Below, in pieces: positions 2,171-62,014 of a stretch of DNA of 64,000 nucleotides (its first letter is position 1; each line of letters opens with the position of its first letter). The notes under the pieces are model-generated. The model made no database searches. It was not told the DNA's origin and was given only the letters and a program-made list of their open reading frames with translations. The position numbers and the translations under genes were made by a program. Source of the stretch: Ascaphus truei (Eukaryota; Chordata; Amphibia; Anura; Ascaphidae); the NCBI GenBank assembly GCA_036426205.1, contig CM071570.1, forward strand, positions 74,679,763-74,743,762, in the 5' to 3' direction.

Positions 2171-2949
2171 GGCACAGATAGTTGTCACTAAAATGTGCCT
2201 TTAGGTTAGGAGCAGCAGCAGTTCTCAGAAAGGACGTTCGTTGTTTAGTCATGTGTCTGGAGCAATTTCAAATGTCAAATTTAGTCATCTAAGACTATTT
2301 TCCATGACAATGTTGTGGTCCTAGCAATTGTAGGCGACACTGTCTCTTACTATACAGATTAATGAGATCCTTTAATCCCACAGTTCGTTATTGCTTGTTA
2401 ACCTACATATTGGTACTAGTAGGTACTGTATTTTGTTTTGTGACACATTATTGTATCTTTTAGAGGTCCGCCGGATGGCCCACAGTACCAGAGCGCCACG
2501 GAAATTCCAGCATAACAATCATTTCATTCCATTGTGAATGATTCCAGTTCATTCTTGTTCACAGCTCCTCAGAGTACCATCTCCCCTAGTTTTGAGTAAA
2601 AAGGGATGGGCCCAAGTGGACATCATAAAGGTCTCCAATTTATCAACCGGTGTGTGATGACTAAATATATGTCAGAGGGCACATTCATGACTAGTGTCCA
2701 GTGGCTGGCGTCTCCGGGGGGCCCGGCCGAATAAGTGGCAGTTCGGCCTGATCGCTCTCTGTGTGCCATGGTGCCCCAGCTTCAGCTGTGGAGCCCTCAC
2801 TAGGGAAACTGACCTCCTTCCCCCCAAGTGCACCCCGGCCGCCAAGAACACCGTTTGGTCCGCCCGGAATTGGGTCAACCTTCCGCTTGCTCCACTCCGC
2901 AGCTCTGTCCTTCTGAGCAAGAGGCCCTTTAAGAAACTAATAAGGGAGA

Positions 2950-4078
2950 AAATACAGAGGGCAAGAGAGGGGAGTGGAGAAACAGCGGGTCAGAGAGAGA
3001 GGGGAAGGGAGGAAATACAGAGGGGGGAGAGAGAGAAGGGATGGGGAGAAATGAAGGGGGAGAGAGAGAAGGGCGATGGGGGTAGTTAAATAAATAAGTA
3101 GTGAGAAATACAGAGGAGGGGTGAGAGGAGAGGGGGGAGGTGGAGTGAGAAAGGCGAGAGGGGCGGAGAGAGAGGGGGGTGGAGAAATGCAGAGGGGCGA
3201 GAGAACAGAGAGGGGGGAGAATAACGAGGGGCGAGAGTAGAGGTGGGGAGTGAGAAGAAATACAGAGGGGCAAGAGAGGGAGTGAGAAATACAGAGGGGT
3301 GAAGAGAGAGGAGTGAGAAATACAGAGGTGGTGATGAGAGAGGGGGAGAAATAAAGAGGGGGAATGAGAGAGGGGTGAGAGAATACAGAGGACGAGAGAG
3401 AGAAGGGAGGTGAGAAATGCAGAGGGGCGAGAGAGAGGGAGGAAGGAGAATACAGAGGGCGAGGAGAGAGAGAAGGGAGTGAGAAAGCAACAGGGGTCGA
3501 AAGAGGGGAGAGAGGGGGGGTGAGAAATGCAGAGGGGCGAGAGAGAGGAGGAGTGAAGAAATACAGAGGGGCGAGAGAGGAGAGAGGGGAGTGAGAAATA
3601 TAGAGGGGCTGAGAGAAGAGGTGAGGAGTGAGAAATACAGAGGGGAGGAGAGAGGGCGAGAGAAGGGCAGAGGGGGCGAGAGAGCGGGACTTCGAAATAC
3701 AGAGGGTGGAAGAAGAAGAGGGAGTGCGAAAATACAGAGGGGTGAGAGAGAGGGGTGTGAGAAATAACAGAGGGGTTGAGAGAGAGAAGGGAGTGAGAAT
3801 AAAAGAGGGAGGTAAGCGAGGGAGAGGGGGGGGAGTGAGAAATAACGAGGGGTGGAAGAGGAGGGGAGTGAGGAAATACAGAGGGGTGAGAGAGAGGGGT
3901 GTGAGAAAATACAGAGGGGTGAGAGAGAGGGGTTGTTGGTGTGAGAAATAAAGAGGGGTTGGAGGAGAGGTGTTTTGTGAAAATANNNNNNNNNNNNNNN
4001 NNNNNNNNNNNNNNNNNNNNNNNNNNNNNNNCAGAGGGGTGAGAGAGAGGGGTGTGAGAAATACAGAGGGGTGAGAGA
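2950..4078. repeat. GA-rich minisatellite (copy B)
   Basis: The same ~32-bp unit as in copy A, with many irregular units. It is interrupted by the N run and stops abruptly at about 4078, where unique sequence begins. Confidence 0.9.
3986..4031. other. Assembly gap (46 N)
   Basis: Forty-six consecutive N lie inside the copy B minisatellite. The true length of the array is therefore unknown. Confidence 0.99.
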
Positions 4079-4450: not shown

Positions 4451-5176
4451 AATTAGATTGTAAATGTGATGTTTAGCAGGGATAAAAACAGAACAGTTAT
4501 ATTATTCCAATTAATCACGTTAAAGCCAAACAAACGCATGTTATTCCCTCTCCTCTGACACCTTTCACAAGAAAATATCTCATCTGCATGCAAGCAATTC
4601 CAGTGCCACTGCATTTATTAATAAATCTAACTGCAGATTAGCATAATGGCAATACAAATAATGACATTTGCAAGAATGTGCCATCATTTTCATTACACAA
4701 AATAGCAGCAGGGACTTTAAGCTATAAATGCATAAGTAAATACAGTTTGCCTATGGAAATTGCACTGAAGTCTGTCACCATCCTAAGCAAGCTTCGGCAA
4801 TTTGTGACATTAATAGAGACAAACATCATAGGTGACAGAGAGGCCTGTGATGCATTAAAAAGGGCCCATCTAAAGGATGTATAACAATGAAGATGCAAAA
4901 TCAGCATCATGCATGCAAGGAAAGCACGAATTCTTCAGAATATCTATGATCTGCATTTAGTCGCTTTGATTGCGCCCATCCTCTCTGCTACTTCTGCAGC
5001 TAATCCTTGCAAAGTCTGTAAAACTGAGTTTATGGTTCGCACCCTTGCTGTGGTAATGCTAATCTAGTGGTTCTCAACCCCTTCCTCGGTGACCTTCCAC
5101 ACAGGTGAATGCCCCTATAATAATGCACATGAATAGAATGTTAGGCAATTGTACAGACACCTGGTCTGGCTGAATC
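4451..5176. other. No gene recognised; possible hAT end near 5066
   Basis: The short open frames here have no recognisable domains. At about 5066 the string agtggttctcaacccc resembles the terminal inverted repeat of many hAT elements, but no partner end or 8-bp duplication was found. Confidence 0.35.
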
Positions 5177-5262
5177 GTGCATAGCCAGCAACCCACCTCG
5201 CACTGATGAGACCCAAAAGGTCGAAACAGCTGTCACTGTGAGTAGGTTTACTGGTTATGCAC
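5177..5262 (+). ncRNA. Type I hammerhead ribozyme, HHR element copy a
   Basis: The catalytic core is complete: CTGATGA (5203-5209), stem II GACC/GGTC closing a short A-rich loop, GAAA (5223-5226), a tiny stem III, then GTC (5232-5234), the expected cleavage triplet. Stem I is long: the outer arm gtgcatagccag (5177-5188) pairs with ctggttatgcac (5251-5262), and the inner arm ctcgca pairs with tgtgag. The internal loop between the arms fits the loop contacts of natural HHRs. One oddity is two extra bases (ac, 5235-5236) between the cleavage triplet and stem I, absent in the 14.2-kb copy; these may weaken cleavage. A minimal stem III is typical of HHRs in Penelope-like elements and retrozymes. 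Confidence 0.8.
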
Positions 5263-5570
5263 TCATTACACCCAGGCTGTGCTGAAAAGCTGTGTAATGC
5301 AATGCAATGCTTATGCTCATAGGGGTCCCTGTAAAAATGGATGAGAAGTAAAGAGTGACACACTGTGCTCATTCGCATGTCATTACCCAGAATCCCTGGC
5401 TGCAGTGGAAACAGTGTATGCTAAGAGATTATGGGGAAAGACAGGATTGCCGACCTGTCTGAGACATGCAAATGCACCAAAAGTGGTATTTTTATTTACT
5501 GTACTGTACACTGTACGGTTGAGGATTTGGGGTACTTTTCTTACCCACCATAACTTTTTTTTAATGTCTG
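5263..5570 (+). mobile_element. HHR-bearing repeat element, copy a body
   Basis: This continues from the ribozyme and contains the family core at about 5367-5476 (mutated left octamer attcgcat 5371-5378, right octamer atgcaaat 5466-5473), then the downstream block ending cttacccaccataac. It is diverged from the other copies, so probably older. Confidence 0.65.
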
Positions 5571-8844: not shown

Positions 8845-8895
8845 GTTGGGTCTGAGGAAGGGACGCATTAGTCCTGAAACGTTACCTTTATTTGC
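8845..8895 (+). ncRNA. Degenerate hammerhead-like hairpin
   Basis: CTGAGGA (8852-8858) fits the CUGANGA core. It is followed by stem II GGAC/GTCC around gcatta, then GAAAC (8876-8880). Stem I pairing is weak and no clear cleavage triplet follows, so this is probably a decayed ribozyme from a PLE end. The downstream sequence is T-rich and unclassified. Confidence 0.45.

Positions 8896-11665: not shown

Positions 11666-11705
<40 letters not shown>
11611..11705. repeat. (GTAT)n(AT)n compound microsatellite
   Basis: A GT/GTAT block grades into about 16 AT units. It directly abuts the tail of HHR element copy b. Confidence 0.97.
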
Positions 11706-11706
<1 letters not shown>

Positions 11707-12083
11707 CAACTGTAAATATTACAGGATATTCATTTGCATGTCTTAGACAGGTCTGCAACCCTGTCTTTCACCATTATCGCCCAGCACACAGCACTTCCAC
11801 TGCAGCAAGGGATTCTGGGAAATGACATGCAAATGAGCACACAGTGCCACCTTTTGTCTCAAGCTCATATTACATGAACAACCCTTAACCAATGCATGCT
11901 GCTTTAGACACAGCTTTTAAGCAAGGGCTTGGGAGATGCAAAGCCAGTAAACCCACTCACAGACATGTTTCAACCTTGATGGGTATCATCAGTGTGGCTA
12001 ACCTTAATAAGTGTGGTGAATACCTACTCTTAATCTCAAACCAGCAAATGCCAGCAACCAACCTCACACTGATGATACCCGCC
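11706..12083 (-). mobile_element. HHR-bearing repeat element, copy b, with flipped segment
   Basis: On the minus strand this is the family body: gaaac...gtc...tgtgag (from about 11990 down), then the 108-bp core bounded by octamers at 11732-11739 and 11827-11834, then acagttgctatat. The segment between gggtatcatcagtgtg (about 11980-11996) and cacactgatgatacc (about 12064-12079) is inverted relative to copy c. The 5' arm of the ribozyme, including CTGATGA, therefore now lies on the plus strand at about 12050-12078. The ribozyme is broken as a result. Confidence 0.75.
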
Positions 12084-12179
12084 TCCAGACCCTGCAGTCC
12101 AAATCTCACTTGAAGCTGCTGGTAGATGTTCTCTGGCGCATGAGTAGAAAGGCTCCTTAAAATCAATGATGCAGTCTTT

Positions 12180-13880
12180 GAGTTTTAGGAAAATCTCCAA
12201 TCTCTGCTGGCCGCAATGTGTATCAGCGCTCGATACGGCCCGTCATGCGCTTGCGTGATGACGCAGTTCCGTTCCCTAACGCGTTTCGTCACGTGCTGTT
12301 ACTTTCTGAAAGGGTTGCTGGTGAATCCTGTCCTCACTAAGGATTTATAGCAGCCGGTTGCTAGGTAACTAGATTGTGTCCCTCAATAGGTTCAGAGTTC
12401 AAATGGATAAGCCTATCATAGCAGGCTATTGTCTTAGATGAACGAGCATGCTGTCACAAAGTGAAGGCATAATATAAACAGAAACTATATTGGGTTAGAA
12501 TATATAGAGGGAGGAGAATAGGAATAACCAAGGGACAAACATTCCTAAAGTCAAATAATTCATCACATGATAGTAAATCAAAACACAAAAAATTAATGAA
12601 GCTACAAAAATAGATGAAATTAAATAAATAATAAATTAATTATTGTTAATAAAATACATATGTATTGAGATGTTATCTACCTAATAAGGGGGACATTTAA
12701 ATAGGCAATAACCCATATATATTACATCCCATAGGGAAAGATAATATAGAATTGGACATATTAATATAGAAAAGACCAAAAAGTGGAAAAAATAATTATA
12801 AATGTAAACGTCCTAATAGCAAAAAATGCTGAAACCAATAAATAAAATAAACAAAATAAAATGTAATGTGACTCAGTCACTATAGATTGACATACATAAT
12901 AATAACAAGATTCAGATTATAATCATAAATACAACAAAGGAATATATAATGTGAATAAAAAATATATAAATCTAAATAAAAAACTAAAATGATTATGAAT
13001 TTTGTCAGACACCAAATGGTTGTTTAGTATTCCTGAGGTCATACCTCATATATATATAGATGGATAGTAATAATATAGGATATAGGTGATATAGATGGTA
13101 TAACCTTACACGGAAATGGGAGTAAGCGACCTTATGTTTATAAACATTTTGTCCTGATGCATATAAACATTTTGTCCTGAGAGAACATAAAGATATAAAG
13201 ACATACATTGTATTATATCTATTTAAAGAGAGGAGCAGAGGAATACAGAGTATAACAATATAACCAAGATCTTAAATGGTGGGAGCAGAGGAGGATCAGA
13301 GCTACACCTAATGTACTTGCATCTTGACATTCATTTAATCCACCAGGGGCAAGAGTGCCCGACTGGTGGATCCAGAACGTTTCCTGGCGGCACAACATTT
13401 TAAAACGATCACCCCCCAGAGCACAAGGAGAAATGGACTCTAGACCCATAATTGTCATGGATCCAGGATCTTGATTATGTGCTGTTTTAAAGTGACGGGG
13501 AACACTATGTGTGTTAGTCCCCTTTATCACATTTCTCCTGTGTTCTAGGAAGCGAACGTGCAATGGACGTGTAGTGCGGCCAACATATTGTTGGCCACAG
13601 CCGCATTGGATCAAGTAAATGACAAAGGAACTAAGGCAACTGATATGTGTGTTGATATAATAGACCCTGTCCTTGTTATGGGAATTGAATTGCGTTTAAA
13701 GTAACAGATGTTTGCAAGTGATGCAACGGCTGCGTCCACATCTGTGGTTACCCTTAGGACCCACATCTATGGACGAAGCAGCTGGATAAATGGATTTTAA
13801 TTTGGAAGGAGCCAAAATGATTTTAATGTTTCTAGCTTTTCTATATACAATGGATGCTCTCTCCGGCAAAATATAGAATA
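12180..13880 (-). mobile_element. Penelope-like element A, 5'-truncated
   Basis: The coding remnant (next entry) is followed on the minus strand by a ~900-bp AT-rich 3' part and then a CpG-rich end with acgaaacgcgttaggg at about 12270-12290, a motif common to PLE ends in frogs. The left side of the coding part stops at a (GAATATA)n array beside HHR element copy c. I infer that it may belong with those HHR repeats as their autonomous relative, but the shared ends needed to prove this are not visible. Confidence 0.7.
13219..13880 (-). pseudogene. PLE polyprotein C-terminus with GIY-YIG endonuclease domain
   Basis: The minus-strand reading gives a basic linker (IVYRKARNIKIILAPSKLK), a cysteine cluster (HRCGRSRCITCKH), then VIYLIQCGCGQQYVGRTTR, the signature of the PLE-type GIY-YIG nuclease, and further conserved HSVPRHF, GGDRF and TFWIHQSGTLAPGGLNE. 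In intact PLEs this domain nicks target DNA for reverse transcription and follows the reverse transcriptase. Here the reverse transcriptase is missing and at least one stop (after KHLLL) interrupts the frame, so the copy is dead. Only the segment from about 13614 to 13219 is an uninterrupted frame. It ends in non-conserved sequence. Confidence 0.85.
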
Positions 13881-13917: not shown

Positions 13918-14275
13918 GCAACTGTAAATATTACTGTATATTCATTTGCATGTCTTAGACAGGTCTGCAACCCTATCTTTCACCATTATCGCCCAGCACA
14001 CAGCACTTCCACTGCAGCAAGGAATTCTGGGAAATGACATGCAAATGAGCACACAGTGCCACCTTTTATCTCAAGCTCACATTACATGAACCACCCTTAG
14101 CCAATGCATGCTGCTTTAGACACAGCTTTTAAGCATGGGCTTGGGAGATGCAAAGCCAGTAAACCCACTCACAGACATGTTTCAACCTTGATGGGTATCA
14201 TCAGTGTGAGGTTGGTTGCTGGCATTTGCTGGTTTGAGATTAAGAGTAGGTAATCACCACACTTATTAAGCTTAA
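13918..14275 (-). mobile_element. HHR-bearing repeat element, copy c
   Basis: The full order on the minus strand is the hammerhead ribozyme (14229-14150), then cccttagccaatgcatgctg in antisense sense-order, then ggtggcactgtgtgctc, the octamer-bounded core (octamers at 14039-14046 and 13944-13951), then tatttacagttgc. It matches copy b closely except for the orientation of the segment upstream of the ribozyme. It follows directly on copy d in the same orientation. Confidence 0.75.
14150..14229 (-). ncRNA. Type I hammerhead ribozyme, HHR element copy c
   Basis: Minus-strand reading: inner stem I arm cctcaca, CTGATGA (14204-14198), stem II ACC/GGT around a short loop, GAAAC (14183-14179), two-base loop, GTC (14176-14174), then tgtgag pairing back to ctcaca with no inserted bases. 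The outer stem I gcaaatgccag pairs with ctggctttgc with one bulge. The first pair of stem II (positions 10.1-11.1 in ribozyme numbering) is T/T rather than G/C, which may reduce activity. The design with a two-pair stem III matches HHRs described in Penelope-like elements. Confidence 0.8.
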
Positions 14276-14430
14276 AAAGTGACAAATCCCTCCACAGTAA
14301 AGCATATAGTAACTGTAAATATTACAGTATATTCATTTGCATGTCTTAGACAGGTCTGCAACCCTGTCTTTCACCATTATCGCCCAGCACACAGCACTTC
14401 CACTGCAGCAAGGGATTCTGGGAATGGAAG
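14276..14430 (-). mobile_element. HHR element copy d, partial, in tandem with copy c
   Basis: The core (left octamer 14335-14342) and its downstream block ctatatgctttactgtggag (minus strand) run straight into the upstream arm of copy c, giving a head-to-tail junction. The other end of the core is cut at about 14423, where unrelated sequence begins. Confidence 0.7.
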
Positions 14431-16816: not shown

Positions 16817-17135
16817 ACAGTGCCACCTTTTATGTCAAGCTCACATTACATGAGAGCCCTTGCTTAAAAGCTGTGTCTAAAGCAGCATGCATTGGCTAAG
16901 GGTTGTTCATGTAATGTGAGCTTGAGATAAAAGGTGGCACTGTTGTGTGCTCATTTGCATGTCATTTCCCAGAATCCATTGCTGCAGTGGAAGTACTGTG
17001 TGCTGGGCGATAATGGTGGAAGACAGGGTTGCAGACCTGTCTAAGACATGCAAATTAATATACAGTATTATTTACAGTTGCTATATGCTTTACTGTGGAG
17101 GGTTTTTGTCACTTTTTTTACCCACCATAACATAT
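16817..17135 (+). mobile_element. HHR element copy e with fold-back head
   Basis: The core is complete (octamers 16953-16960 and 17048-17055) and is followed by gttgctatatgctttactgt and ttacccaccataac. The ribozyme is absent. In its place 16817-16853 is an inverted copy of 16907-16943 with one mismatch, giving a 37-bp hairpin. An upstream (GT)n run and a downstream (AT)n run flank it. Confidence 0.75.
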
Positions 17136-30010: not shown

Positions 30011-30219
30011 TCGGTGTATGTTTTACGCCGGCTATGGAATGAACGCCAATTGTTCTCCACCCTAAATAATCTACTACAAACTTCCCCATCTCTCTTGCCT
30101 AAGCGCCACTGGGTCCCTCTCAGCCACGGACCTTTCCTCCTACTTCTCACAAAATCCGTGCTTACTCCCCCCCTCCACTACCACTCTTACCTTCCTCTCC
30201 TTTTGCCCAACCTCTGCGA

Positions 30220-31015
30220 TTGACCTCCTCTCAATCAAATGCTTCAATGCCACCACATCCCCTTCTGAGCCCATTCCACACTCCCTCCTCTCCTCCTTCC
30301 CTATATCCCCTCCGTCAACCTTTCCCTATCCAGCAGACAATACTAGACGCCTTAAAAACTGCTGAAGTCATCCCCATTCTCAAAAAAATATCGAACCTAC
30401 CCTCCAACTTTCGCCCTATCTCACTCCTCCCAAACTTTTCCAAAATCATTGCGCGCATCATTCACAACCAACTCTCCACTTTAATCTACACCCATTCCCT
30501 CCTTCCCATTGTCCAGTCTAGATTTCGTCCCTCACACACTACTGAAACTGTCCTCCTCACCATCCACAACTTTCTCTCTCAATCTTGCCACTCCAAACTC
30601 ACCTCCATCCTCATCGATCGCTCTATAGCCTTTGACACCATCGATCACCTCACTCTCCTCTCCACCCTCACCAACCTTGGCATCACTGACACAGCTCTCT
30701 CATGGCTCTCATCCCAACTCTCCCACCGCTCCTACTTCAGCACCTTCAACAATTCATCCTTTCCACACACCAGCCTCCAAATGGGCGTACCCCAAGGCTC
30801 CATCCTTGGTTCTCTCTTCTTTTCCCTCTACACTGCCCCCCTCTTTGACCTCATCTCCTAATATGGATTCCACGTCCATTTTTTCACAGACAACATCTAA
30901 ATCTTTTTCTCTTTCCCACTATATTCACTCAAACTTACCACCCATATCTCTGCCTGCCTTCCTGCAATTTCCACCTTTATTGAAGCTCTCACTTCCTAGA
31001 AATCAACCCAGCTAA
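30220..31015 (+). pseudogene. L2 LINE reverse transcriptase remnant
   Basis: The plus-strand frame gives AEVIPILKKI, NFRPISLLPNFSKIIARII, SRFRPSHTTETVLL, then a degenerate IDRSIAFDTIDH (the 'DLSAAFDTVDH' box) and MGVPQGSILG. These are reverse transcriptase blocks in the right order. The YADD-type catalytic box is disrupted: the frame stops near LFDLIS and resumes in another frame as FTDNI. Downstream of the MITE the reading continues TEVLCFS and VTSITSTYHYTLYNI. The copy is not functional. Confidence 0.85.
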
Positions 31016-34285: not shown

Positions 34286-35590
34286 AGCAAACACGAATAA
34301 TATACATAGAAAGGTGCCCTACCAAATGCACTTGTGGTGCGAGAATGTGAAATGGGTATAGTGCAAGTAAAACCCTTTTATTATTAATTAAAAATATTTA
34401 TATAACGGATCAGGTGTACAGGTCCATGACCTGTCCCAAAGAAATAAACCACCCCCTGTTAAAGCAGCAGATGTATAAGTATAGACCACGGCTACAGTTA
34501 CTGTAGCTTGAAAGACATGTATAATGATGTCCTCATATATAAGAGGACTATGGAGGGACGGTGTGTTTCTAATTTTGAAGATATATATAGACCAATTATA
34601 GAGTTGTAAAATCAGAATAAACTGGTGAAATGATGATACCTAATAGGGAATTAGATAAACGGGGAGAACGTGAACCCCTCGTTGATACCCTGTGGGTTAA
34701 GTGTTCCCAGATCGAAAATCCACCTTGATTCTCGTTTAAGTACCTCTGTGTCCCAGTCTTCGCCTCTGATGCTTTTGGGGATAGATTCCACCCCCAAAAA
34801 ACTCAGGACTGTGGCATCCCCTTGATGCATATGGTGTGCATGGTTCGCCAGTGGGGTATACCGTTTATTCCTTCTGTCACCCAGATGTTCAGGTATGCGG
34901 TGTCGGAATTGGCGGATGGTTTTACCCACATATTTCTTATTGCAGATACATTTTGATATATTTATCTCCACGGATTTGTGTTGTGCATATATGTTGTATG
35001 CCAAATGTTCATACAGATGGGTAGCACACTTCACGATATCCTAATGATTATGAACTAATGCCCGTGATGTTCGTCTCTACTGATTGCATAGGCGGATTAA
35101 TAGGTCAGTAGATTACCATTGACTTGTACACAATGAGGTATGGCTGTTTCTATACAGCCTCCCCAATACAGTTGTAGAATTTTGGTGCATCTAGTGCATC
35201 AGACTGTTCATTATTATATATGAACAGGTTCTGATTTTTTAGTTAAAATCATTTGGATTATTATACCGTTACACCAACTCAACTGTGGGTAAATAATTAT
35301 GCTATGAGTAGGTTCTAGAGGGGAGCTACCCCCATAATACTACATGGGATACTTGAATAGACTCAGGAGCCATATTCTCCGCTAATGCATATTTAAATCA
35401 GAAGCTTTAACAGGGGGGGGGTTTATTTCTTTGGGACAGGTCATGGACCTGTACACCTGATCCCTTATATAAATATATTTAATTAATAATAAAAGGGTTT
35501 TACTTGCACTATACCCATTTCACATTCTCGCACCACAAGTGCATTCGGTAGGACACCTTTCTATGTATATTATTCGTGTAATCTCTCTGT
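34286..35590 (-). mobile_element. Penelope-like element B between inverted repeats
   Basis: About 180 bp at 34286-34470 recur inverted at 35402-35585 (for example ggtcatggacctgtacacc and ataataaaagggttttactt). Between them lies a GIY-YIG coding remnant. On the minus strand the 34.3-kb copy is the normal 3' end, so the 35.5-kb copy is an inverted duplicate at the 5' side, a layout known for PLEs. Confidence 0.7.
34651..35034 (-). pseudogene. PLE GIY-YIG endonuclease domain remnant
   Basis: The minus-strand frame contains CICNKKYVGKTIRQFRHRI, then TPLANHAHHMH, FLGVESIPKSIRGEDW and LKRESRWIFDLGTLNPQGIN, the conserved blocks of a PLE-type GIY-YIG nuclease and its C-terminus. The GIY-YIG core here is KYVGKT. 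The reverse transcriptase is missing upstream. The sequence differs enough from the 13.2-kb domain to represent another PLE lineage. Confidence 0.85.
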
Positions 35591-44329: not shown

Positions 44330-45480
44330 TTTGTGTGGAGATCACAACACCTTGGACACTTTTTTGGCACAACTTAATTGTAATCCTTATCATTTAAAAT
44401 TCACTTTTAAACACAGCACCTTTGAACTTGAGTTTTTGGATTTACTTATTTACATAAAAGAGGGAGCATATGTACCAAGTCGTACCATAAACCTGTGAGT
44501 TGTCTAAACTATATTTAGGCCGAGAGCAATAATTACAATAAATGGCTAGAGAGCATACCATTTGGGGAACGAAGACAGGTAAAGCGGAACTGTTCAGAGC
44601 CCATGGTTTTTGAGGAACAAGCTGTTGCTATTCTAGACAAGTTTAGGTCCAAATCATATGGACTTAACATTCTAGAAGAAGCATATTCTAAAACCACTAA
44701 ACTTAAATCTTATTGATTATTAAAAAGGAAAACTGAAAAACAATCTAACCACAATGAAAATACCAAAATTATTGTGGATGTTCCATTTATCACACAGTTC
44801 AACCCGCTCTCAGCCAAAATTAAACGTGTCCTCAACAAACATTGGCACTTAGTATTGCAAGATCCAATTTTTAATTCATATATTCCACCGATTCCAAGAG
44901 TAATCTGTACCAAAGCCAATTATCTAAAAAAAAAACTATTGTTCCCAGTTGTTTGAAATCAAGTAAAGACAGAACTTGTAAATTCCTTTTTAATATAAAA
45001 AAGGCTTTTTCAAGTGTCTTAAGTGCAAAATGTGCAAATTAAACCCAATAGGTTAAACAGGTTAGAGGTTTTTCTTTGACTCACACTAAGATTTTATCAT
45101 TAACCGTTTCATCAACTGTGACACAATCAATGCAGTTTATTTGATTCAGTGTCCATGTGACAAACAGTACTGTATATAGGTAGAACCACTCGCAAACTCA
45201 AACTCCAATTTGCAGAACACATTACCTATATTCAGAAAGGGTTTACACAACATAGTCTTTTCAGACACTTGAAAGAATTTCACAATCAGAATCCAGCAGG
45301 AATTAAATGTATGAGTATTGACATATTGGAACCCAATTGGAGAGGGGGTGATTTGGTTAATCAGATCTCTAAATTAGAAACCAAATGGATACACAGTTAA
45401 AACATTAGTACCCTTTGGACATAATGTTGATATTGATCTGGGAGCTTTTCTCCAAGATTAAACCTACCTCCTTATTCATT
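44330..45480 (+). pseudogene. PLE reverse transcriptase C-terminus and GIY-YIG remnant
   Basis: The plus strand gives LNCNPYHLKFTFKHSTFELE and FLDLLIYIKEG (post-catalytic PLE reverse transcriptase), then RRQVKRNCSEPMVFEEQA, INPLSAKIKRVLNKHW-type linker text, VYLIQCPCDKQY with an IGRTTRKL block (GIY-YIG domain), SLFRHLKEFHNQNPAG and GGDLVNQISKLETKWIH. Multiple stops and frameshifts exist. The YVDD catalytic box was not located and probably lies in the truncated part. Confidence 0.8.
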
Positions 45481-55500: not shown

Positions 55501-57080
55501 ATAATACAATATATAATTCAAACAGTGTTTGTGAGCTTTTACCAGCATTTTTAAACAAAAACATTCCCAAACATAATTTAATCCTGTAGAAATAAAATTG
55601 AAATGTGTTATCTTACTGGTTACACACAATACAGGACACGCAACACAAAAACGTCTCTCATACACAGTCAGCAACTTCACAGAAATAACAAACAGATGAG
55701 AAAACAGTTCTACATTACCTTGTTCTCATAAATAAACTGCTTAAGCACAGAACTTGTTAATTTTAATGTGAATGCTTCACATTCTTTAAACTGTAAGGGA
55801 GAGGCTGTGCCCCTCCTTTCGTTATGATAGAAATACCGCAAACAAAAAGAATGTGTCCGGTTTAAAAAGTATCCGCCTGGCCAGGACGAATAAACCTTTC
55901 AAACTATAACCAGGGACAGAGCTTAATATATTCGTTCCTTTCCGCTGTGATGTATTTCTATAAATTGGTGTACACCTTTTAAAAACTTTTAAAATTTAGA
56001 TCTCATCATGAGCAACTAATATTCATATTTTTGTTGTAAATATCTGCAAATTCATGGATTGCGACCTATGCACATATGATAATCAGCATGACCCACAGTA
56101 TCTTTCACACAAGAAATCATTGAGGAAAAAATTCATCAGGGTTACAAACAAACTCTTTTACATAAGGTAGCGTGTTTTTTTTTTTTTTTTTTTTTACAGA
56201 GACTTGCACACTGAGCCCCCACGGGCGAAGCAGCAGTTCCTTGCTTCTGACTCTGATAGTGGCACTCTCTCTGCCAATGACTAAAATCACCACAATTAAA
56301 ACAGACACCATTATTCTGAGCTATTCTTCCTGATTAATTTCTGGGACCAGCATAAAATCTCCATCTATCCTGCCTTGTCAAAATACATTGCATTATTCTC
56401 TTGCCGAGAACAACCTGCTGCATAATTTACAAACGGGTCACAATAATAATCACCAGCCATCTGAGCAACAAATTCTTCAGGAGTCTGACTAGGTTTACAC
56501 TTTCATTTAAAAATGTACATTCCTAGGCTTCCTTCCAAAGTCCTTCTTACTCATGTACACCCATAGTTGCGTATAGGAAACAGCTAATTTATGACAAATA
56601 ATTGCAGATAAATAATAATACAATTCTTATACTTTACACAATATACAATGGTCGTTCACCTAGATCAGAGATAACAGTCCAGTCGTGCACAAAATTTACT
56701 GGACTCTAACCAAAAATGTTTTCAAGGGACTCTAACCCAATCCACAGTTACAATTTAGGTACTGAATTCCCAGAGGGGGGGTGAGACAATGTAAAAATCA
56801 CATATACTCACTTGCCGCCTTTGTGAATCCCCACTTCTAGACGCCAAAATTGATGGAAACCTTTTCCTTGCCTAGGCTTCAGAACTGAAAGGAAAATTTC
56901 CTCTGCCAAAAGAGCTGAAGGCCTTGTGACTGGATATACACATCTGCCATGCACCAGACTCCCCCAGGAAGCTTTTCATGCACTGACACTTGTTATCTCC
57001 GATTTTCATGATTTCACGGGCCTGGAAAACGAAGGAAATTAAACGTAACGCAAGCCAGATTTCAAATGGTTTTTGAAGCA
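55501..57080. other. No recognised gene; poly-T run
   Basis: A ~30-base T run lies at 56167-56196. The rest is unclassified AT-rich DNA. Confidence 0.4.
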
Positions 57081-57087
57081 AAAAGTG

Positions 57088-57239
57088 GCACTGTGTGCTC
57101 ATTTGCATGCCATTTCCCAGAATCCCTTGCTGCAGTGGAAGTGCTGTGTGCTGGGTGATAATGGTGAAAGGCGGGGTTGCAGACCTGCCTAAGACAGGCA
57201 AATGAGCATACAGTATATTTAAATTTATTATATATATAT
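57088..57239 (+). mobile_element. HHR element copy f, core and tail only
   Basis: A preceding aagtggcactgtgtgctc is followed by the left octamer atttgcat (57101-57108), the cccagaatcccttgctgcag block, and the right end gacaggcaaatgag (octamer mutated). The tail runs into an AT and GT microsatellite. There is no ribozyme. Confidence 0.75.
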
Positions 57240-61087: not shown

Positions 61088-61088
61088 G

Positions 61089-61410
61089 TGTTTATTTATA
61101 TATGTGTTTTATTCATACTGTAGATGTGCAGAGGGTCTCCGGAGCAGAACCGCTGTGGTTTTAGGTCCGGGGACCCCCTGCTCCCCGAGATACAGGCCCC
61201 TTTAGGGGGTGCCGGTATCCCTCTGCTTGGTTTACAGGCCGCGGTCACGTGATCGGGACCTTTAAATGCAGAGGGATACCGGCACCTCATAAAGGGGTCT
61301 GTATCTCGAGAAGCAGGGGTCCCCCGACCTGAAACCAACACGGTTCAGCTCCGTAGACCCCCTGCACATGTACACTATGAATAAAAATGTATTTTAAATA
61401 ATTGTTAATG
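61089..61410. repeat. 322-bp tandem unit, copy 1
   Basis: Identical to the next 322 bases as far as I can read. The unit holds a long inverted repeat (about 100-bp arms), with gcagagggtctccggagcag against the reversed right end gcagggggtctacggagctg, belonging to the 'gaagcagggggtcc' repeat family. Confidence 0.9.
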
Positions 61411-61732
61411 TGTTTATTTATATATGTGTTTTATTCATACTGTAGATGTGCAGAGGGTCTCCGGAGCAGAACCGCTGTGGTTTTAGGTCCGGGGACCCCC
61501 TGCTCCCCGAGATACAGGCCCCTTTAGGGGGTGCCGGTATCCCTCTGCTTGGTTTACAGGCCGCGGTCACGTGATCGGGACCTTTAAATGCAGAGGGATA
61601 CCGGCACCTCATAAAGGGGTCTGTATCTCGAGAAGCAGGGGTCCCCCGACCTGAAACCAACACGGTTCAGCTCCGTAGACCCCCTGCACATGTACACTAT
61701 GAATAAAAATGTATTTTAAATAATTGTTAATG
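61411..61732. repeat. 322-bp tandem unit, copy 2
   Basis: A perfect direct copy of 61089-61410, giving two identical 81-codon minus-strand frames that are not genes. Perfect identity implies a very recent duplication or an assembly artefact. Confidence 0.9.
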
Positions 61733-62014
61733 TGCCGATGTTTGCGCAGAGAGAGCAGCGGATCTCTCTCTGCTGCAAACACATCTCGCCCCGCCAGCCC
61801 ATATTATCATTGATGTGCATATACAGTACTGTATGTGTACAGTACTGTATGCTAGGGGTTATAGGGGTTGTTGTTATACAGTATATCAAGATTGTTATAT
61901 GTGTATATATATATTTATATATATATATATATACAGTATATATATACTGCATTACAATTCATGAATTTATGCCATCTTGCAGACACGCTAAGCATTGCAG
62001 CCTTTTAAATCCTG

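Follow-up and report, generated by a model that had tools for sequence, protein, structure and literature searches.

A probably inactive hammerhead ribozyme in a frog genome and the possible spread of its repeat family by a Penelope-like element

The window analysed here, by which we mean the whole 64-kb stretch of DNA, contains what we read as an old and likely dead copy of a hammerhead ribozyme repeat, whose family would have been cut, circularised and copied by a Penelope-like element (PLE) into (TA)n tracts, starting from fixed internal positions. We assign this reading a probability of roughly 0.6. It draws on features of the DNA itself: the motif, the exchanges of base pairs in its helices, the copy number, the tandem spacing, the ends and flanks seen in the commoner subfamilies, a cleavage junction that is unbroken, the head-to-head pairs and an insertion private to the window copy.

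Results

Structure of the hammerhead

An earlier note on this DNA had described a type I hammerhead in a dispersed frog repeat, and its description holds: the Rfam match and thousands of genomic copies bear it out. CTGATGA, stem II, GAAA, a tiny stem III, GTC and a two-part stem I are all present, in this order, on the + strand. A covariance search with the Rfam type I model (RF00163) gave a significant match at 5197-5242 (+), with 36.9 bits against a gathering threshold of 34 (E = 1.2e-5 for the whole window), and this is the sole Rfam match above gathering within the 64 kb.

The predicted fold contains the 12-pair outer stem I that had been noted, with 5177-5188 pairing with 5251-5262 and one G-U among the 12, as well as the inner stem I; a step of 4 pairs (5190-5193 with 5245-5248) lies between the two. 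According to the Rfam alignment, the inner stem I pairs 5197-5202 with 5237-5242. The core CUGAUGA (C3 to A9) follows at 5203-5209, stem II GACC/GGUC with the loop CAAAA at 5210-5222 (5210-5213 with 5219-5222, also in the predicted fold) and GAA at 5223-5225. C17 is at 5234, which puts the predicted cleavage between 5234 and 5235. Stem III has two pairs (A-U and C-G; 5226-5227 with 5232-5233) and the loop AGCU. The eight bases of this region, ACAGCTGT at 5226-5233, form a perfect palindrome, so that in a dimer they could pair as an 8-pair helix, as against the two-pair stem III within one molecule. Dimers are suggested by analogy: amphibian hammerheads of like arrangement are reported to cut better in this form (PMC7229834, PMC6155905).

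The bases required of a hammerhead core, CUGANGA ... GAA ... A15.1-U16.1 and NUH, are all found in the window copy. C17, which should immediately precede stem I, is separated from it by two extra bases. The minimum-energy fold keeps stems I and II and replaces the open core and stem III by a UGAU/GUCA pairing; the hammerhead arrangement described here is the one given in Rfam's alignment. For 5170-5270, the predicted fold is more stable than those of all 200 shuffles (z = -5.2). The hammerhead at 5177-5262 is more than chance.

The repeat family

The hammerhead belongs to a near-monomer copy, at 5178-5556 (+), of a repeat unit 393-407 nt in length. Its 5' edge is the point where genomic relatives stop aligning, and the alignment with the unit reaches 5556. 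Long matches to it are 84-88% identical within 5178-5480 (best 40 of 5,900 candidates). The window copy is one old copy of an abundant hammerhead repeat of ~400 nt. The exact core pattern of the family occurs 3,387 times in the genome and the backward-pattern control 0 times, and a genome search with RF00163 returned at least 42 places (best 74 of 344,898 candidates), the window's copy not being among the matches listed. At one place on C1, seven hammerheads lie within 3 kb, spaced by 394, 403, 399, 393, 402 and 400 nt.

In metazoan non-LTR retrozymes, units of ~150-450 bp, tandem in places, hold a type I hammerhead; their GC content is below 50% and their circle is stably self-paired. The family has the first of these traits, the window copy itself being a near-monomer. 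As for the others, five natural units folded as circles have a GC content of 0.44-0.45, and all five predicted folds are more stable than expected (z -3.2 to -8.2, 40 shuffles each).

To judge the helices, we aligned the window hammerhead with 73 others, taken from loci L001-L090 minus L005, L042, L046 and L061, with doubles dropped. In this alignment, 90.7% of cells are paired, compared with 24.0-36.5% for slid structures. One pair of the outer stem I is G-C in 36 copies and C-G in 23, and one of the inner stem I is U-A in 37 and C-G in 25; these exchanges follow subfamilies, and few events are thus counted many times. None of 500 shuffles equalled the count of cells in which both partners are changed (62), or the covariation score. 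Two of the five measures were not exceptional: the 8 pairs with changes on both sides were reached by 40 of the 500 shuffles, with 8-13 in slid structures, and the 30 further pair types by 112 of 500. On this evidence, the helix exchanges across the 74 copies support the hammerhead fold.

Positions in the unit are given below on a ruler, one natural unit in which u1 is the first base past the cleavage site. Several more copies are present in the window. One full and one partial copy lie in tandem at 13926-14424 (-), with a variant hammerhead at 14204-14174. The copy at 11677-11996 (-) is 95.3% identical to 14208-13892, carries a variant hammerhead at 11992-11962 and is followed by (TA)n. Head to head with it stands an inverted partial unit at 11999-12080 (+), 97.6% identical to 14193-14274. 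Two 5'-truncated units end before TA tracts, at u298 (16942-17134, +) and at u242 (57064-57220, +). In both variant hammerheads, on the - strand, U faces U at the base of stem II, and stem III is a palindrome without a loop (ACATGT); the pattern of this variant has 2,130 exact occurrences in the genome, and Rfam reported no hammerhead at 14204-14174 or 11992-11962, even at E values up to 10.

Other repeats in the window are a 322-bp unit in two copies with 100% matching at 61088-61734 (Tandem Repeats Finder) and, at 804-1734 and 2942-3974, a pair of related minisatellite arrays rich in GA, each built of units of ~34 nt, the second followed by a run of N at ~4017-4031. A LINE-like reverse transcriptase fragment lies at 30103-30861 (+; RVT_1, E = 3.9e-17).

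How the copies end

The 3' ends of the copies, counted together with the pairing of copies over 84 loci (without L005, L061 and L091, among others), cluster on the ruler. The 3' end falls at u242-244 in 26 alignments from 24 sequences, and in 18 of these 26 the following 60 nt hold a TA run of 10 nt or longer. Nine alignments end at u307-316, with such a run in 7. Ends at u225 belong to an older subfamily that includes the window copy, and this is the point where that subfamily departs from the ruler unit; here a TA run was found in 0 of 20 alignments. The window copy has no (TA)n on either flank. By these counts, the (TA)n flank is a trait of the commoner subfamilies, and the evidence on insertion comes from these rather than from the window's own copy.

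A second sample comprised 26 non-overlapping loci from L031-L060, with L041, L042, L043 and L046 excluded because they overlap others. A TA run no shorter than 10 nt lies within 80 nt upstream in 13, downstream in 15 and on either side in 22 of the 26 loci. By comparison, such a run occurs in 4% of 2,000 random single 80-nt windows, so that ~8% would be expected for either side. The inserts in this sample are short and dispersed, with a median of 364 nt and 25 of 26 at most 700 nt long, and the 5' ends of copies are scattered. The (TA)n beside these 22 loci would mask any target site duplications.

Since loci picked by the core pattern cannot reveal 5' ends at the cleavage site, the junction was tested separately, using the sequence of the commonest subfamily. 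Its u3-u26 is found exactly in 3,053 copies, of which 2,755 retain the five further bases that lead across the cleavage site; in the control, 2,779 of the 3,053 keep five bases on the opposite side. For this one subfamily, 5' ends thus show no pile-up at the cleavage site. Because they do not pile up there, the RNA that was copied was presumably continuous at this point, either as religated circles or as uncut multimers.

The Penelope-like element

A fragment of a GIY-YIG PLE occupies 12081-13870 (-), with an endonuclease ORF at 13695-13219. For this ORF, Pfam, NCBIfam, PDB sequences, AlphaFold and Foldseek gave nothing significant (model pLDDT 42), and a single-sequence search found no GIY-YIG relatives. 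With a profile built from three sequences, 22 relatives were recovered, of which two contain the GIY-YIG domain PF01541; the organisms named among the 22 are Ascaphus truei and Xenopus laevis, in line with an amphibian-like genome. The endonuclease has at least 150 matches in the genome, and the family looks young in places, where it lies inside open frames of up to 939 aa (for example C4:125863776-125864165). Two further GIY-YIG PLE endonuclease fragments lie in the window at 34651-35040 (-) and 44636-45455 (+).

A PLE copy at another locus, L093, has a 3' part 97% identical to the window fragment and continues into its own tail and then a (TA)n tract. A 20-mer of the PLE tail, taken from the flank of L036 and differing by one base in L093, occurs 847 times in forward and 805 times in reverse orientation in the genome. 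TATATATATA stands within 5-35 nt after 315 of the 847 forward tails, the nearest yardstick being the 4% of random 80-nt windows with a TA run. On the reverse strand, the TA count of 1,823 exceeds the 805 tails; tails were counted repeatedly there, so this figure is not used. On the stretch of C1 for which tails were listed, 4 of 11 EN places have a PLE tail within 2.6 kb downstream.

The element and the unit also pair in a similar manner. Among the first 100 of the 1,652 PLE tails, pairs within 5 kb comprise 10 head-to-head, 0 tail-to-tail and 2 same-strand cases, and 16 of 84 unit loci hold head-to-head pairs and 1 of 84 a tail-to-tail pair. Against this stand the exact hammerheads on C1, whose pairs at distances of up to 5 kb are mostly of the same strand (7), with 1 head-to-head and 0 tail-to-tail. 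Of the 99 hammerheads listed, 2 have a PLE tail no more than 500 nt away; random placement gave a mean of 0.06 and at most 2. Head-to-head inverted repeats have been reported as the most frequent form of rotifer Penelope elements (PMC3846280). On the indirect evidence of a (TA)n target and a head-to-head arrangement common to both, the PLE is plausibly the best candidate for the mover of the unit, and PLEs had been proposed as a strong candidate mover of animal retrozymes on other grounds (PMC7229834). From this shared pattern, it is likely that the commoner subfamilies were copied into TA-rich tracts by a Penelope-type element.

Fixed 3' ends with 5' truncation would fit LINE machinery as well, and the window contains LINE reverse transcriptase fragments, as does the neighbourhood of the unit in L091. 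That a LINE rather than a PLE moves the unit, as it would a SINE, is nevertheless rather unlikely: six loci contained 0 tRNA genes and five sequences no good Pol III B box (best 8/11), that is, no tRNA-derived Pol III promoter of a SINE was found in these samples, and head-to-head pairs are a habit of Penelope elements (PMC3846280).

A different question is whether the unit is separate from the PLE at all. The earlier note had brought up both PLEs and retrozymes, and the evidence leans to a retrozyme-like unit apart from the PLE, in that one PLE copy (L093) ends before a unit begins. If the unit were instead the pseudo-LTR (pLTR) of the element, the hammerhead would belong to the PLE and no distinct non-autonomous element would exist. 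Such an arrangement could be read from the window, where the PLE fragment is flanked by two 95% identical units of the same orientation, with the inverted partial unit at the junction. For Penelope pLTRs, a tendency to lie head to head has been reported (PMC3846280), and sequence resembling the PLE tail is present in six other unit loci (L014, L018, L036, L037, L039 and L056). L093, however, runs ~160 nt past the break seen in the window to the tail and (TA)n, and only then comes a unit, in opposite orientation. Units also stand in head-to-tail arrays with nothing in between. In L093, of the two PLE copies compared, units do not bound the RT-EN ORF at both ends; the other copy, L094, departs early from the PLE sequence, so that the absence of a unit from its 1.95 kb is uninformative. 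The hammerheads differ, too, from the minimal pLTR form without a stem III loop, as the window copy has the loop AGCU; the variant at 14204/11992 (-) is loopless. We therefore consider it quite unlikely that the unit is a pLTR. The window's PLE fragment ends ~160 nt before the PLE end of L093, exactly at the start of a unit, and by comparison with this one copy, L093, a unit appears to interrupt it.

Two hammerheads ~3 kb apart on C1 had been considered as a full PLE and turned out to be a tandem duplication beside a LINE: positions 1-1133 and 3086-4215 of L091, ~3.1 kb apart, are 98.5% identical and carry unit and LINE sequence. GAAACGCGTT is present in the PLE 3' region (window 12287 (-); L093 1051 (+)), possibly as the remnant of a minimal PLE hammerhead. 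Minimal PLE-type hammerhead-like motifs, CTGANGA ... GAAACGTT or GAAACGCGTT, were seen at 8852 (+) and 60084 (-) of the window and at 1519 (-) of L092. A loose minimal-hammerhead pattern fits five places in the window, with 0.12 expected, and three of the five are hammerheads of the unit.

Two extra bases at the cleavage site

The two bases after the cleavage site, which had been remarked upon as unusual, are real and private to the window copy. The insertion is AC if placed at 5235-5236 (+) and CA if placed at 5234-5235, both readings describing the same sequence. In exact matches to the 2.82-Gb assembly, GGTCGAAACRGCYGTC is directly followed by TGTGRG 4,338 times (backward control 0). With any two bases in between, the motif occurs six times: five of these have TG, and AC is found in the window alone. 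In the 74-hammerhead alignment, both inserted columns are filled by the window copy only; L068 fills one of them, in a poorly aligned stretch.

Two extra bases next to stem I, there on the C3 side, are also present in a published hammerhead, which shows very little cleavage under standard conditions (PMC3088659). Because the private two-base insertion parts the predicted cleavage base from stem I, the window copy is most likely dead or nearly so. The folding energy gives no sign that the insertion is disruptive: opening the core costs 4.7 kcal/mol, compared with a mean of 4.1 (sd 1.1) in 55 relatives. As this cost is ordinary, the idea that the insertion stabilises the inactive fold with the UGAU/GUCA pairing was dropped.

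We find it very doubtful that the hammerhead at 5177-5262 is still active, with the extra bases tolerated or useful. Every core base is present and the Rfam score is still above gathering, and the published hammerhead with a 2-nt insertion near C3 retains some activity in high salt (PMC3088659), but that activity nearly vanishes under standard conditions and the window's insertion is unique by exact motif. Relatives argue in the same direction, if not uniformly: among 30 copies found by DNA similarity and not by the core, 15 keep every core base and 15 have lost one, yet their core columns are 94% conserved and the other hammerhead columns 91%. The proposal that this repeat produces, or once produced, self-cleaving RNA can thus be kept for the past of the family, which probably made such RNA because thousands of copies retain the core and the helices covary; for the window copy today, the insertion speaks against it.

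Finally, spread of the repeat as satellite DNA by unequal crossing-over, with the hammerhead as a passenger, would suit the place with seven hammerheads in 3 kb but is highly improbable, given that the sampled copies are mainly short dispersed inserts with clustered 3' ends and that the helices swap pairs between subfamilies.

Discussion

Hammerheads in frog repeats and amphibian retrozymes have been published before (PMC3088659, PMC7229834). Closest to the window family are the amphibian non-LTR retrozymes HHR_Amex1 of the axolotl and newt satellite 2, whose units are likewise tandem in places (PMC7229834). They differ in the length of the unit (~330-350 nt, compared with 393-407 nt here), and (TA)n flanks and fixed internal 3' ends, both seen here in the commoner subfamilies, are unmentioned in what PMC7229834 says of them; in relation to both, the window copy alone has a private insertion at the cleavage site. 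The main text of that paper uses microsatellite, target site and AT-rich 0 times each, PMC7761336 uses microsatellite 0 times, and a literature search combining retrozyme and microsatellite returned plant work and a curation guide only, as far as the sources could be judged from the parts seen.

The repeat-associated hammerheads of Xenopus tropicalis also lie in interspersed repeats of a frog (PMC3088659), a likeness that goes by their description. The minimal hammerheads of PLEs (PMC7761336, PMC6155905, PMC11167929) are of type I like the window's, and the moving machinery may be the same; they lie in the pLTR and lack helix III or loop-loop contacts, whereas in the window's hammerhead loop III is present, stem I is extended and contains an internal loop, and the ribozyme sits in its own unit. 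The HHmeta hammerhead from a saltern has two extra bases by stem I as well, but on the C3 side and not after C17 as here (PMC3088659). What is new is the manner in which the commoner subfamilies inserted; within the family, the window copy is an ordinary, decayed one.

We envisage the following course for the working family. The hammerhead would cut multimeric transcripts, likely in dimeric form with pairing through the palindromic stem III, and religation would turn the monomers into circles. The reverse transcriptase and endonuclease of a GIY-YIG Penelope-like element would open a (TA)n tract with a nick and begin to copy the RNA at either of two fixed internal sites. Copying would continue across the cleavage junction and break off at varying points on the 5' side, so that 5'-truncated inserts of one or more units would remain. 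A result from a lizard PLE, whose hammerhead-core mutants inserted in vitro as well as the wild type (PMC11167929), weighs against this reading. The full proposal, a vertebrate retrozyme moved in trans by a GIY-YIG PLE that reverse-transcribes religated circles into TA microsatellites, from fixed internal starts and through the closed junction, is put forward as tentative, and we would give it somewhat less than an even chance.

If it is true, the thousands of such inserts in this genome would be a record of circle copying by a PLE. The inserts, their clustered 3' ends, the (TA)n tracts shared with the PLE and the unbroken junction make the question of which enzyme moves animal retrozymes directly testable.
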